The position numbers and the translations under genes were made by a program. A model generated the notes under the pieces. The model was not told where the DNA came from. It did no database searches and was given only the letters and a program-made list of their open reading frames with translations. Positions 1,173 through 27,266 of a DNA stretch of 27,578 nt are shown here, piece by piece. Positions within the stretch are counted from its first letter, which is position 1; every line of letters begins with the position of its first letter. The stretch comes from a virus, in the IMG/VR virus record IMGVR_UViG_3300025135_000018, positions 1 through 27,578 of that record. The stretch is one strand, 5' to 3'.

Positions 1173-1218
1173 TGGTCGTCAGGGAGACATTATGATTGGG
1201 AAAAGTAATGTACCTTTG
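1173..1218 (+). promoter_or_regulatory. Dyad plus -7 promoter of repeat module 1
   Basis: The dyad TGGTCGT-CAGG-GAGACA (1173-1189) is followed by 21 nt and TACCTTTG (1211-1218). The left arm is intact and the right arm has two changes from ACGACA. The 21-nt interval is almost identical to those at 19185 and 25221 (TTATG-TTGGGAAAAGTAATG core), so this is the same module. It fires away from the early operon toward the 3' end of the tape-measure gene. Confidence 0.6.
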
Positions 1219-1223
1219 TTAAA

Positions 1224-1242
1224 AATTTCTACTATAGTAGAT
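1224..1242 (+). CRISPR. Solitary Cas12a (type V-A) repeat-like unit, copy 1
   Basis: AATTTCTACTATAGTAGAT matches the type V-A consensus AATTTCTAC-N4-GTAGAT, with stem TCTAC/GTAGA and a TATA loop. It lies 5 nt after TACCTTTG, so transcription should start at or just before the 5' A of a mature Cas12a handle. It is not an array: no second intact repeat follows, and the next 20 nt run into the 3' end of the tape-measure gene in antisense. The next bases (CTATCCAGGATTT) may be a decayed second half-repeat. A phage crRNA mimic is the favoured reading. Confidence 0.7.
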
Positions 1243-13864: not shown

Positions 13865-15058
13865 TTAGTTTTCTATTAAATTTGTAAATAATTCAACATT
13901 ATTTAAGGTAAATTCGACATTCAACCCTTTCCATCTTATGATTTGATTTATAACGGTCTCAATATCACGCCTGGAAGGCTCGATCACATTTGTCTTGAAT
14001 ATCTCATATGCATTCAGGAGCTCTTTGGGGTTTCCCATGCTGCTGCCGTCCTTCAGACCGAGTATAAGCGGGTTGATCTTATGTGAATAACATATGTTTC
14101 TACTCGCTTCTTGGGCAGTTTCCTTGAATTGCTTATCAAGACTGTCAGGTTGGATAGTTTGAATTTCAGCGGCATTTTCTTTTCCATCAAAGAAAAATAC
14201 CATTGCCTTGCCCGTATTTTCCTCGCCTGAATAAGACCTTTCTATATTTTTGACAATTTCTCTTCGTGCCTCGTCATTAGCAGGCTTGGAATAGAAGAAA
14301 ATAGCCTTGGAAGGGTTCACGGAATTTTCTATATTTGACTTATGGAATACAGGTATCTTAGCATCAAGCTCCAACCAGTTGCTTGAGGCGGCATAAGAAG
14401 GTACGGTGTAGAATAAAGTTGCCGGTGATTTTTTAATGATCCGCCATATCTCACATTTATTTTTTGGGTTGCTTGATTTTGGCTCATATTCTTTAATTGG
14501 AAAACGACCGGTGTCTCTCCAATCGAACGAATAATAGTATTTTTCGATCTTTTCCGGGTGTCGCATGTCGATGCCCAGTCGAATCTTGCTCGGTTCAATC
14601 CGCTCACACTTGATTAAACGTGTCTTATCCTCGTTCCAGTGAAGTTTGATGTAGATGGTGGAGTGGATTATCATATCAAGTGTGATATTCTCTATAAAGT
14701 CCTGTAATGTGGTATCGTCCTCAATAAATCTTTTCAGTCCGGTAAGTTTGACCATATCGGCAGCGGACAGACCAGTATCGGTTATATCATACCCCTGTCC
14801 GCAGATCATAAGTTTTTTAAAATCAACGATTGCCGAGTGCAACGAAACACTTTCATAAAGTTCATTTAGCCTGTTAGGGAATAAATTATCCTGACCGAAC
14901 CAAATATATCGACCATAATAATACTCTTTCGGTAAGGATTTATTGTATTTGGTATTCCCAAAAACCACATCAAAACCCTGATAACTTTCTTTTTCGGGCT
15001 GAACTGGAATCATTTTAGTTAAACCTATACTGCTCTTAAATTTTTCAAATCTTGTCAT
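13865..15058 (-). CDS. Portal protein (397 aa)
   Basis: The length and pattern fit a siphophage portal. There is an N-terminal wing (WFGQDNLFPNRLNELYESVS, LHSAIVDFKKLMICGQGYDI), a stem region with TLDMIIHSTIYIKLHWNED, and a C-terminal segment (EASRNICYSHKINPLILGL, NPKELLNAYEIFKTNVIEPS) of the kind seen where portals interact with terminase and adaptor. The dodecameric portal forms the DNA channel of the capsid. The ATG overlaps the previous TAA as TAATG. It lies downstream of the capsid and tail-tube-like genes; in most siphophages the portal comes before the capsid. Confidence 0.8.
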   Translation of the reverse strand: MTRFEKFKSSIGLTKMIPVQPEKESYQGFDVVFGNTKYNKSLPKEYYYGRYIWFGQDNLFPNRLNELYESVSLHSAIVDFKKLMICGQGYDITDTGLSAADMVKLTGLKRFIEDDTTLQDFIENITLDMIIHSTIYIKLHWNEDKTRLIKCERIEPSKIRLGIDMRHPEKIEKYYYSFDWRDTGRFPIKEYEPKSSNPKNKCEIWRIIKKSPATLFYTVPSYAASSNWLELDAKIPVFHKSNIENSVNPSKAIFFYSKPANDEARREIVKNIERSYSGEENTGKAMVFFFDGKENAAEIQTIQPDSLDKQFKETAQEASRNICYSHKINPLILGLKDGSSMGNPKELLNAYEIFKTNVIEPSRRDIETVINQIIRWKGLNVEFTLNNVELFTNLIEN

Positions 15059-15444
15059 TATATGTATATATTATTTTGTGTCATTTGATTATATGCACCG
15101 TCCCATCCTTCCACATAGTATCTCCCGGATTCCAATACAATTCCGGATGTGGTCGCGGTAAGCACCGATTGTGTAAATGGTGTCTCATATACTTTGTAGT
15201 CGCCCCAGCCAAAACCCAAACTTACTATGCCGTTTTCCAGATCCTCACTTTGTGTACCTGCCTCGATTAAATTAAATCTGTCATAACGTCTTTCAAATGA
15301 CGAAGTATTTACCATGCTAAATGTTTTGCTTATTGCAGTGTCATCATCGGTAAAATTGAATATGTATGTCGGGGCAGACAAAACTGACTTTTCTCCTAAA
15401 GTAAATACAACTGAGTTGGTTGCCCCTTTGATTATTGATATCAT
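15058..15444 (-). CDS. Hypothetical structural protein (128 aa)
   Basis: I do not recognise this family. It is a beta-rich protein (VVFTLGEKSVLSAPTYIFNF, then ESGRYYVEGWDG) without membrane segments, between the tail-tube-like and portal genes, so a head or neck decoration role is likely. The start at 15444 is supported by AAAAAAATATAATTA 5 nt upstream. Its leader carries the only - strand copy of the repeat module (15479-15547), so its mRNA may begin with a diverged Cas12a-type hairpin. Confidence 0.65.
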   Translation of the reverse strand: MISIIKGATNSVVFTLGEKSVLSAPTYIFNFTDDDTAISKTFSMVNTSSFERRYDRFNLIEAGTQSEDLENGIVSLGFGWGDYKVYETPFTQSVLTATTSGIVLESGRYYVEGWDGAYNQMTQNNIYI

Positions 15445-15478: not shown

Positions 15479-15497
15479 ACCTACAATAGTAGAAATT
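15479..15497 (-). repeat. Diverged Cas12a repeat-like hairpin on the - strand
   Basis: The - strand reads AATTTCTACTATTGTAGGT. It differs from the consensus AATTTCTAC-N4-GTAGAT by one base in GTAGGT. The U-A pair at the base of the stem becomes a U-G wobble, so the fold is kept. The loop TATT equals that of many natural type V-A repeats. It follows the diverged promoter at 15502-15547 and leads in sense into the 128-aa gene. Confidence 0.6.
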
Positions 15498-15501
15498 TTT
15501 A

Positions 15502-15547
15502 AAAAAATATAGTAACTTTCCCGAACATAATGTCTTGGTTACGGCAA
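15502..15547 (-). promoter_or_regulatory. Diverged dyad plus -7 element of the - strand module
   Basis: On the - strand the dyad TTGCCGT-AACC-AAGACA (15547-15531) is followed by 21 nt and TATTTTTT (15509-15502), a degenerate TAnnTTTG. The interval keeps TTATGTT-GGGAAA, so it is homologous to the three + strand modules. The AACC spacer equals that at 19175. Activity is uncertain because the final G of the -7 element is lost. Confidence 0.45.
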
Positions 15548-15580: not shown

Positions 15581-15602
15581 CTATGGTAGATCTATAGTAG
15601 AT
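15581..15602 (+). repeat. Collapsed tandem repeat relic
   Basis: CTATGGTAGAT and CTATAGTAGAT stand back to back, followed by ATT. The intact tandem pair at 25255-25308 contains the same two half-units in the same order, with the same TATG and TATA loops and the same ATT afterwards. Removing 24 nt (25275-25298) from that pair gives this sequence exactly. Neither half keeps AATTTCTAC, so no Cas12a handle can form. Confidence 0.6.
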
Positions 15603-15603
15603 A

Positions 15604-19049: not shown

Positions 19050-19121
19050 TTATATTATTATTACTTTTGTTAATTCTTCATCTTCCCTGATCCAAATTGC
19101 TTTCTTTTTTATTTTTTCCAT
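19050..19121 (-). pseudogene. Truncated duplicate of the RHH gene (23 aa frame)
   Basis: The - strand reads ATGGAAAAAATAAAAAAG and continues as the RHH gene at 42. After two differences in codons 3-4, the 34 nt from AAAAAAGAAAGCAATTTGGA to the end of codon 15 are identical to the left-end gene, and the A-rich leader also matches. The copy keeps the DNA-contacting strand (KKAIWIREDE), then diverges and stops after 23 codons, so both RHH helices are missing. It lies 25 nt before the 220-aa gene and 47 nt from repeat module 3. It is either a relic of recombination or a short leader ORF. Confidence 0.8.
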
Positions 19122-19149
19122 TTTTTTTCTTTTGTTTTTTTATTATTTA

Positions 19150-19160
19150 CCGTAGTAGAT
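19150..19160 (+). repeat. Half-repeat relic CCGTAGTAGAT
   Basis: CCGTAGTAGATATT lies just upstream of module 3. The run GTAGATATT also occurs after the intact repeat at 25290, after the collapsed pair at 15597 and before the terminase stop at 21064, so this is probably the 3' end of an older repeat unit. It lacks the 5' handle. Confidence 0.4.
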
Positions 19161-19167
19161 ATTAGAA

Positions 19168-19213
19168 GTGTCGTAACCACGACATTATGTTTGGGAAAAG
19201 TAATGTACCTTTG
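19168..19213 (+). promoter_or_regulatory. Dyad plus -7 promoter of repeat module 3
   Basis: The dyad GTGTCGT-AACC-ACGACA (19168-19184) is followed by 21 nt and TACCTTTG (19206-19213). The arms GTCGT/ACGAC are perfect. The 4-nt centre AACC is the reverse complement of the GGTT centre at 25211, so the two 14-bp palindromes are exact inversions of each other. The interval matches module 1 at 20 of 21 positions. Confidence 0.65.
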
Positions 19214-19218
19214 TTAAA

Positions 19219-19249
19219 AATTTCTACTACGGTAGATACTATGGTAGAT
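19219..19249 (+). CRISPR. Solitary Cas12a repeat-like unit, copy 3, plus half-repeat
   Basis: AATTTCTACTACGGTAGAT (19219-19237) matches the type V-A consensus with a TACG loop. One base later comes ACTATGGTAGAT (to 19249), the 3' half of another unit. The handle lies 5 nt after TACCTTTG. Transcription would run toward the 3' end of the 55-aa gene in antisense. No spacer of normal length between full repeats is present, so this is a solitary unit and not an array. Confidence 0.7.
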
Positions 19250-21028: not shown

Positions 21029-21069
21029 TTGTCATGGGTCTGACAATATTATCCACAACTATCGTAGAT
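21029..21069 (+). repeat. Possible eroded repeat module near the terminase stop
   Basis: TTGTCA-TGGGTC-TGACAA (21029-21046) is a perfect 6-bp hairpin that resembles the module dyad. CTATCGTAGATATT follows, with GTAGAT at 21064-21069. The terminase stop codon lies in GTAGATATTA, just as the tail-tube-like stop lies in GTAGATATTA at 15597. The -7 element and AATTTCTAC are absent. I read it as a deleted module, but the match is short. Confidence 0.35.
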
Positions 21070-25203: not shown

Positions 25204-25249
25204 TTGTCGTGGTTACGACATTATGATTGGGAAAAGTAATGTACCTTTG
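25204..25249 (+). promoter_or_regulatory. Dyad plus -7 promoter of the tandem repeat module
   Basis: The dyad TTGTCGT-GGTT-ACGACA (25204-25220) is followed by 21 nt and TACCTTTG (25242-25249). Arms GTCGT/ACGAC are perfect. No TTTG is present at -33, where the right dyad arm ends instead, so an activator or phage sigma is likely needed. It points toward the 3' end of the GIY-YIG gene. Confidence 0.65.
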
Positions 25250-25254
25250 TTAAA

Positions 25255-25308
25255 AATTTCTACTATGGTAGATCAGTATCTTTGTTAAAAATTTCTACTA
25301 TAGTAGAT
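25255..25308 (+). CRISPR. Tandem Cas12a repeat-like units (two promoter-repeat monomers)
   Basis: Two copies of AATTTCTAC-N4-GTAGAT stand at 25255-25273 (loop TATG) and 25290-25308 (loop TATA). Each is the 3' part of a 32-nt monomer beginning with a -7 element: TACCTTTG at 25242 and TATCTTTG at 25277. The two monomers are separated by only CAG and differ at two positions. If Cas12a cut before the second handle, the first RNA would carry a 16-nt guide, shorter than natural type V-A spacers. The second repeat reads on into the GIY-YIG gene in antisense. There is no leader or spacer set of a normal array, and no cas gene in the window. Confidence 0.75.
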
Positions 25309-25792
25309 ATTGGGAAAGATTGGCGGATCGTTGCGAAATTATTCGTTCAACTCTTTTTTTGTTGGTCCGGATACGAAACTCATCATCGTGGTGGTACCTG
25401 TGCTTTTTTTTGCAGAGTTCCGAGCACCAATATTTCTGTCTGCCAATAAGCGGGGCATGACACTGTCTACATTCTTTTATATTATCTACAATAGTAGATG
25501 TGTGAACGTAACTCATGTCGCCGATGATTCCATTATTTTTGTTGACGAGTGTGCCGGTACCCTGATCAAGCCTGCCATAATGAAGGATCAATTCTCTCTC
25601 TTTCTCAAGGGCAGCCTGTTTGTTATCTGTGGTGAAGACTACCGTTACAGTATAAGTTGTTGTTGACACAACTTCTTTCCAGTCCCGGTGACGGTCTCGA
25701 AGAGACCATGGTCTCCTGTTTTTACCCATTCCCACATAAAAAACATGGTTGTTGTCATCTCTGGTGTGCAAGTATACATTATATTTATCCAT
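25298..25792 (-). CDS. GIY-YIG endonuclease with C-terminal zinc-binding domain (164 aa)
   Basis: Residues about 4-75 fit a GIY-YIG nuclease: NVYLHTRDD and FYVGMG stand for the GIY and YIG strands, RRPWSLRDRHRDW holds the conserved Arg, and AALEKERELILHYG holds the metal-binding Glu (E63 or E66 by eye). Residues 108-132 (CRQCH...YWCSELCKKKH) form a CxxC...CxxxC zinc site, and a basic tail follows. This layout is that of phage homing or intron-free free-standing endonucleases. Its TAG stop lies inside the + strand repeat at 25290-25308, and its linker region encodes another repeat-core hairpin (25484-25499). It lies between replication and packaging genes. Confidence 0.8.
   Translation of the reverse strand: MDKYNVYLHTRDDNNHVFYVGMGKNRRPWSLRDRHRDWKEVVSTTTYTVTVVFTTDNKQAALEKERELILHYGRLDQGTGTLVNKNNGIIGDMSYVHTSTIVDNIKECRQCHAPLIGRQKYWCSELCKKKHRYHHDDEFRIRTNKKRVERIISQRSANLSQYLL
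25484..25499 (-). repeat. Cas12a repeat core inside the GIY-YIG coding strand
   Basis: On the coding (-) strand ATCTACTATTGTAGAT has the full type V-A stem-loop TCTAC-TATT-GTAGA and the terminal T, but is preceded by CAC instead of AAT. It codes for STIVD at residues 99-103, between the nuclease and zinc-binding domains. Eleven specified stem and flank bases make a chance hit in this window unlikely but not excluded. Confidence 0.45.
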
Positions 25793-27199: not shown

Positions 27200-27202
27200 T
27201 AT

Positions 27203-27266
27203 GTCGTGAAGTGTCGTTTTCTTGTTTTTAGAGGGTGGGGGGTAGCTACTCCCCCCTGTTCACGAC
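27203..27266. repeat. Cruciform-type nested inverted repeat before the replication gene
   Basis: Outer arms GTCGTGAA (27203-27210) and TTCACGAC (27259-27266) are perfect. An inner hairpin GGGGGGTAGCTACTCCCCCC (with one bulged T) lies between 27237 and 27256. GTCGT is repeated at 27212 and its complement lies in ACGACAC at 27263, the same half-site as the module dyads. Following the gene at 27282 on the - strand it could be a terminator, but there is no T run; an operator, attenuator or origin structure fits as well. Confidence 0.5.

Follow-up and report, generated by a model that had tools for sequence, protein, structure and literature searches.

Dispersed, promoter-abutting copies of the Cas12a crRNA handle in a Bacteroidota phage as candidate type V-A RNA anti-CRISPRs

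The 19-nt Cas12a handle AATTTCTAC-N4-GTAGAT occurs in five copies at four genome places of the viral DNA analyzed here (the window, which is the whole 27,578-nt stretch of IMG/VR record IMGVR_UViG_3300025135_000018). Four of the copies are exact and stand directly behind a promoter, and the fifth has one mismatch. We consider it probable that these handles mark small non-coding RNA genes with which a Bacteroidota phage makes decoys for Cas12a, i.e., type V-A RNA anti-CRISPRs. The window encodes terminase, portal, and tape-measure genes, and its terminase is closest to those of Bacteroidota phages (Flavobacterium phage 11b, 37%; Bacteroides and Cellulophaga phages). No cas genes were seen among the open reading frames of the window, ten of which were scanned with PHROGs, and the window gave no Rfam match and no tRNA. 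A blastn search of the region against named phages returned no match. The handle copies and the sites related to them are as follows.

1174-1242, plus strand: cassette copy 1, with -7 element TACCTTTG at 1211-1218 and handle AATTTCTACTATAGTAGAT at 1224-1242; it ends at the stop of the tape-measure gene.
15479-15547, minus strand: diverged cassette copy 2, with a degenerate -7 box lacking TAnnTTTG and handle AATTTCTACTATTGTAGGT at 15479-15497, with one mismatch.
15581-15603, plus strand: partial site consisting of two fused 3' half-handles, CTATGGTAGATCTATAGTAGATA.
19142-19163 and 21056-21069: further partial handle sites from a mismatch scan of the window.
19169-19237, plus strand: cassette copy 3, with dyad TGTCGTAACCACGACA, -7 element TACCTTTG at 19206-19213, and handle AATTTCTACTACGGTAGAT at 19219-19237.
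19238-19249, plus strand: duplicated 3' half-handle (ACTATGGTAGAT) directly behind copy 3 (partial site 19236-19249).
25205-25273, plus strand: cassette copy 4a, with dyad TGTCGTGGTTACGACA, the conserved upstream stretch, -7 element TACCTTTG at 25242-25249, TTAAA, and handle AATTTCTACTATGGTAGAT at 25255-25273.
25242-25273, plus strand: the 32-mer of unit 4a, TACCTTTG-TTAAA-AATTTCTACTATGGTAGAT.
25277-25308, plus strand: tandem unit 4b, with -7 element TATCTTTG, TTAAA, and handle AATTTCTACTATAGTAGAT at 25290-25308.
25309-25369, plus strand: tail of unit 4b, a possible weak hairpin and then a T-run at about 25363-25369; a candidate terminator (fold z-score -0.48) that is absent from the consensus-scan list.
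25481-25499, plus strand: handle-like site ATTATCTACAATAGTAGAT with 2 mismatches (partial site 25484-25499), inside the minus-strand GIY-YIG-type gene and without a promoter; it may be a chance match.

Copies 1, 3, and 4a share a 69-nt cassette with 87-91% identity to the reference copy. The cassette runs from an upstream stretch, which forms the dyad TGTCGTnnnnACGACA in two copies, through TTATG-(A/T)TTGGGAAAAGTAATG, the -7 element TACCTTTG, and TTAAA to the handle. Units 4a and 4b are the product of a 35-bp tandem duplication and are separated by 3 nt (CAG), so that no more than 16 nt (CAGTATCTTTGTTAAA) lie between the two tandem handles; the stop codon of the minus-strand GIY-YIG-type gene falls within the loop of the unit 4b handle. 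The original prediction had described two tandem 32-mers, 3 nt apart, at 25242-25308, and re-reading the sequence reproduced them exactly. It was right to call the arrangement multi-copy, but the copies are not confined to that pair. Similarly, the limit of 16 nt that it set on the guide holds for the first tandem unit, whereas the other copies continue into unbroken sequence. Rightwards of the tape-measure gene, and including it, the annotated genes are encoded by the minus strand. The plus-strand cassettes are located close to gene 3' ends, towards which they read in antisense, and they therefore drive no evident gene. Copy 2 sits in the leader of a minus-strand gene (15058-15444).

The dyad TGTCGTnnnnACGACA is present in two cassettes (19169-19184 and 25205-25220), and TGTCGT/ACGACA half-sites occur in other intergenic stretches (27202-27217, 27262, and 201); together these could be where a phage regulator binds. 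The window also contains a 72-nt inverted repeat of 90% complementarity (15-86 on the plus strand and 19077-19148 on the minus strand), within which the start of a small gene (MEKLKKKAIWIREDE) recurs as a fragment beside cassette 3.

The original prediction held that the handle is identical to natural type V-A repeats at conserved positions, and a search of Bacteroidota for cas12a loci with the same repeat bore this out. The arrays at eight Bacteroidales cas12a loci have repeats that end in AATTTCTACTATTGTAGAT and differ in their upstream halves. The four exact window copies equal this natural handle at 15 of 15 non-loop positions, and copy 2 keeps 14 of the 15. The loops of the exact copies are TATA, TATG, or TACG, in contrast to TATT in the natural Bacteroidales repeats. 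TTAAA before the handle is also found in one natural repeat (L190), but the 5' part of the V-A repeat is mostly absent from the window copies, so that the window lacks the full 36-nt repeat. With 16 nt between the tandem handles and thousands of bases between the other copies, the window does not hold a V-A array, and each unit has a promoter of its own except the degenerate copy 2. We also considered that the copies descend from a captured V-A repeat array that was spread by recombination and is functionless at present. Such an origin would account for the match of copy 2 to 25 contiguous nt of the natural repeat L190 (50.1 bits) and for the partial handles and the duplicated gene start that are scattered over the window. 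It is nevertheless very unlikely, as there are no spacers of natural length and no cas genes, the promoter occupies the place of the upstream half-repeat, and the promoter-bearing copies differ only at free positions.

The number of handle-like sites in the window is far above what shuffled sequence gives. CTACN4GTAGAT within 1 mismatch occurs at 16 window sites (1.04 in shuffles), and the 19-mer within 3 mismatches occurs at 11 (1.65 in shuffles). A first-order Markov model gives an expectation of about 1e-4 per window for the exact 19-mer and 6e-8 when the -7 element at this spacing is included; the copies are homologous and therefore count as one origin. In a collection as large as IMG/VR, chance also produces the bare 19-mer, and 45 of 94 non-redundant sampled IMG/VR sites fall in an open frame. 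The present case differs from chance 19-mers in how the promoter is spaced and in which positions vary from copy to copy. Only 3 of the 32 columns vary among the four promoter-bearing 32-mers, and all of them are free positions of the motifs, falling either in the N4 loop or at the nn of TAnnTTTG (p 0.004).

TAnnTTTG lies 5 nt before these four handles, as had been predicted, although this is a consensus match only; there is no clear -33 box at the window handles. The placement is mirrored across IMG/VR. In a search that accepted TAnnTTTG at any distance of 0-30 nt ahead of the handle, 11 of 16 non-redundant sites had it at 3-7 nt, compared with 3 of 28 sites with a scrambled stem as the control (Fisher p 1.3e-4). 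Tightening the promoter-handle pattern to fit the window left no match in other viral contigs. Because the -7 element clusters at this distance, transcription is expected to begin close to the 5' end left by Cas12a processing; both the maturation cut of Cas12a crRNA and the -7 element of Bacteroidota are established. A consensus scan listed no terminator behind the window handles. In an RNA that reads through both tandem handles, a 14-bp duplex is predicted to form instead of the handles, and each tandem unit may therefore depend on its own start. A role of the hairpin as a minus-strand terminator was rejected, since its 5-bp A+T-rich stem is weak (-3.7 kcal/mol) and copy 2 is in a gene leader and not behind a gene. 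A sigma70-type -10 box 6 nt before the handle is visible by eye in contigs L036, L066, L068, L073, and L101; we do not rely on it because the count is weak (4 of 49 intergenic sites).

These data also bear on a reading in which the element acts as DNA, as a phage promoter whose start site is covered by a palindromic operator (TCTAC-N4-GTAGA), and the likeness to the Cas12a handle is coincidental. CTAC-N4-GTAG is indeed a near-perfect dyad at a position where repressors bind, the cassette has the upstream dyad in addition, and partial sites are scattered. However, the conserved part is asymmetric, with AATTT before the stem and AT after it, like a crRNA handle and unlike a symmetric operator, and it equals the handle at every one of the 15 positions. 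The scrambled-stem control has no peak of promoter spacing, and the promoters on the plus strand lack a gene that they could regulate. We regard this explanation as unlikely.

In the Cas12a decoy model that we favor, the -7 element would be placed so that the first A of AAUUUCUAC-N4-GUAGAU, or a position beside it, is where the RNA begins; this is the 5' end that Cas12a itself makes on a maturing crRNA. A decoy RNA of this kind would require neither an array nor an upstream half-repeat. The Cas12a of the host would bind the handle and its 3' tail, with no PAM-flanked target in the phage, and would thereby be titrated away from real crRNAs; multiplication of the cassette would raise the dose of decoy. 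There is precedent for both aspects of the model, in that laboratory work showed inhibition of the Moraxella bovoculi V-A system by RacrVA1-3 and a dependence of RacrIF1 inhibition on dose (PMC10651486).

The guides are informative about what the RNAs could do besides. For none of the five window guides does the phage contain a TTTV-flanked seed of at least 7 nt, which argues against short-guide regulation within the phage and against self-targeting, and we rejected self-targeting by the window guides on this ground. The same result leaves the suggestion in the original prediction that the module is a source of short, non-cutting guides without backing from the phage sequence. The tail of unit 4b (ATTGGGAAA) resembles the upstream stretch of the cassette over 9 nt, with no TTTV PAM, and we take this as chance or as a cassette remnant. 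When 58 spacers of V-A arrays were compared with the window, no convincing protospacer was found.

A related alternative is a CreR-like regulator, in which host Cas12a loaded with short or partial guides binds without cutting and represses a promoter in the phage or that of the host cas12a. CreRs are known for type V-A (cited in PMC13131331). Elements that fit such a role were found elsewhere. In a Paludibacteraceae genome (L140, around 354; L179, around 4074), a promoter and handle in the same layout form the leader of cas12a itself, and that promoter contains a match to a 12-nt seed of the guide, flanked by a TTTA PAM; this looks like a CreR-like autorepressor. In phage contig L127 (around 309), the promoter of the handle contains 11 nt of the guide beside a TTTA PAM, and the handle is possibly a self-repressing, CreR-like phage RNA. 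The 16 nt available to the first tandem unit would also suit a short guide. In the window, on the other hand, the phage seed search was negative for every guide, no guide has a seed of at least 8 nt in the cas12a loci examined, and the 3' tails differ in each copy and are simply the local flanks. A regulatory function of this type is thus quite unlikely for the window copies, and we return to the decoy model.

The decoy model also draws on the cellular genomes that carry such elements. The promoter-handle layout occurs in five cellular genomes, three of which encode Cas12a. One of the three is the Paludibacteraceae genome with the cas12a leader described above. In the other two, L139 and L143, the element lies near a phage-type integrase gene, outside the stretch examined around cas12a, and L141 (Bacteroidales) carries the element without Cas12a. 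The element of L142, a Woesebacteria bin, is the same as in viral contigs L131 and L138, and L142 was left out of the rate because it is not Bacteroidota. Cas12a was present in 2 of 3 Bacteroidales genomes with an element outside the cas locus, compared with 15 of 393 sampled (p 0.004), a difference that rests on small numbers and metagenome bins and describes genomes that carry related elements, not the host of the window phage itself.

A single-protein terminase search of IMG/VR and GTDB genomes gave no relatives of the phage, and a profile built from five terminases gave 80, the closest 47% identical. The exact motif AATTTCTACN4GTAGAT is absent from 858 kb of stretches around these 80 terminase relatives, and the whole record of the closest one, L205, has no handle within 1 mismatch. 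Among 20 further whole viral records, 19 have one to three handles and L205 has none, so the five of the window are the most; several of these siblings have a hairpin and a T-run behind the handle.

Some sibling loci combine the V-A handle with other repeat-like units. A unit with ..GTGGATTGAAACG, which we take to be a type I-C-like repeat, precedes the V-A handle in L056, L075, L126, L312, and L313 and follows it in L133, L135, and L136. These eight contigs have a promoter-like site, often a third hairpin, and then a terminator-like hairpin with a T-run, and they are apparent compound anti-CRISPR RNAs, each in one predicted transcript. Rfam assigned no CRISPR family to the sibling loci, and 295 Bacteroidales genomes contained no compound of I-C and V-A units. 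Behind the V-A handle, and in one predicted transcript with it, L130 and L141 have TTGTGATTTGCTTTTC, which presumably resembles the type II-C repeats of Bacteroidota; in the same place, L137, L139, L143, and L027 have TTGTGAATTG. A duplicated 3' half-handle directly after the handle is also found in L061, L131, and L134, and in L061 its register puts the handle's own TTTC PAM before the match. L101 has three V-A handles within ~450 nt in a context that is not of the Bacteroidota type, and at least two of these follow sigma70-like promoters whose -10 box lies 6 nt ahead of the handle.

The RNA anti-CRISPR reading of the original prediction thus holds up, but a type V-A member is not a new kind: RacrVA1-3 are likewise phage-borne, repeat-like RNAs that lack accompanying cas genes, lie downstream of a promoter, match a V-A repeat, and are proposed to occupy Cas proteins (PMC10651486). 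What is new is the dispersed multi-copy layout, including one tandem pair, and the handle-only, promoter-abutting design, which keeps no more of the repeat than its handle part of 19-24 nt. The type V-A CreR cited in PMC13131331 is also a single handle RNA with its own promoter that is used with Cas12a, in the layout of the L179 leader; in comparison, the window copies lie away from a cas locus and have guides for which no PAM-flanked seed was found. Our literature search, of incomplete coverage, turned up no description of V-A units that are multi-copy or fused to a start site.

The published search discards neighboring repeats. For a full match, SRUFinder uses 90% repeat coverage and a 41.1-bit cut, and it removes full matches within 100 bp of one another and candidates with similar flanks. 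By our own application of these rules, the window copies do not count as solitary units, with at most 24-25 of 36 nt covered and one tandem pair. Against seven Bacteroidales repeats, the promoter-bearing copies score no more than 40.1 bits, and copy 2 reaches 50.1 bits against one repeat with 25 of 36 nt covered. The published survey is therefore expected to have missed most such units; its criterion is a search filter and not a functional one.

Beyond the decoy function, we tentatively propose, as a possibility for which the case falls a little short of evenly balanced, that Bacteroidota phages harbor a distinct class of "born-mature" RNA anti-CRISPRs. Their promoter would be fused to a minimal handle, so that the RNA would start at the processed end with no need for pre-crRNA processing; they would be multi-copy for dose and mostly missed by full-repeat surveys. 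Whether a 19-nt handle at the transcription start suffices to disarm Cas12a would be testable, and such RNAs would be candidates for small, protein-free off-switches for Cas12a. If the proposal is true, the copy number would suggest that the dose of decoy is limiting, and full-repeat searches would understate both how common and how minimal RNA anti-CRISPRs are, whereas a search for a promoter together with a handle could find them.
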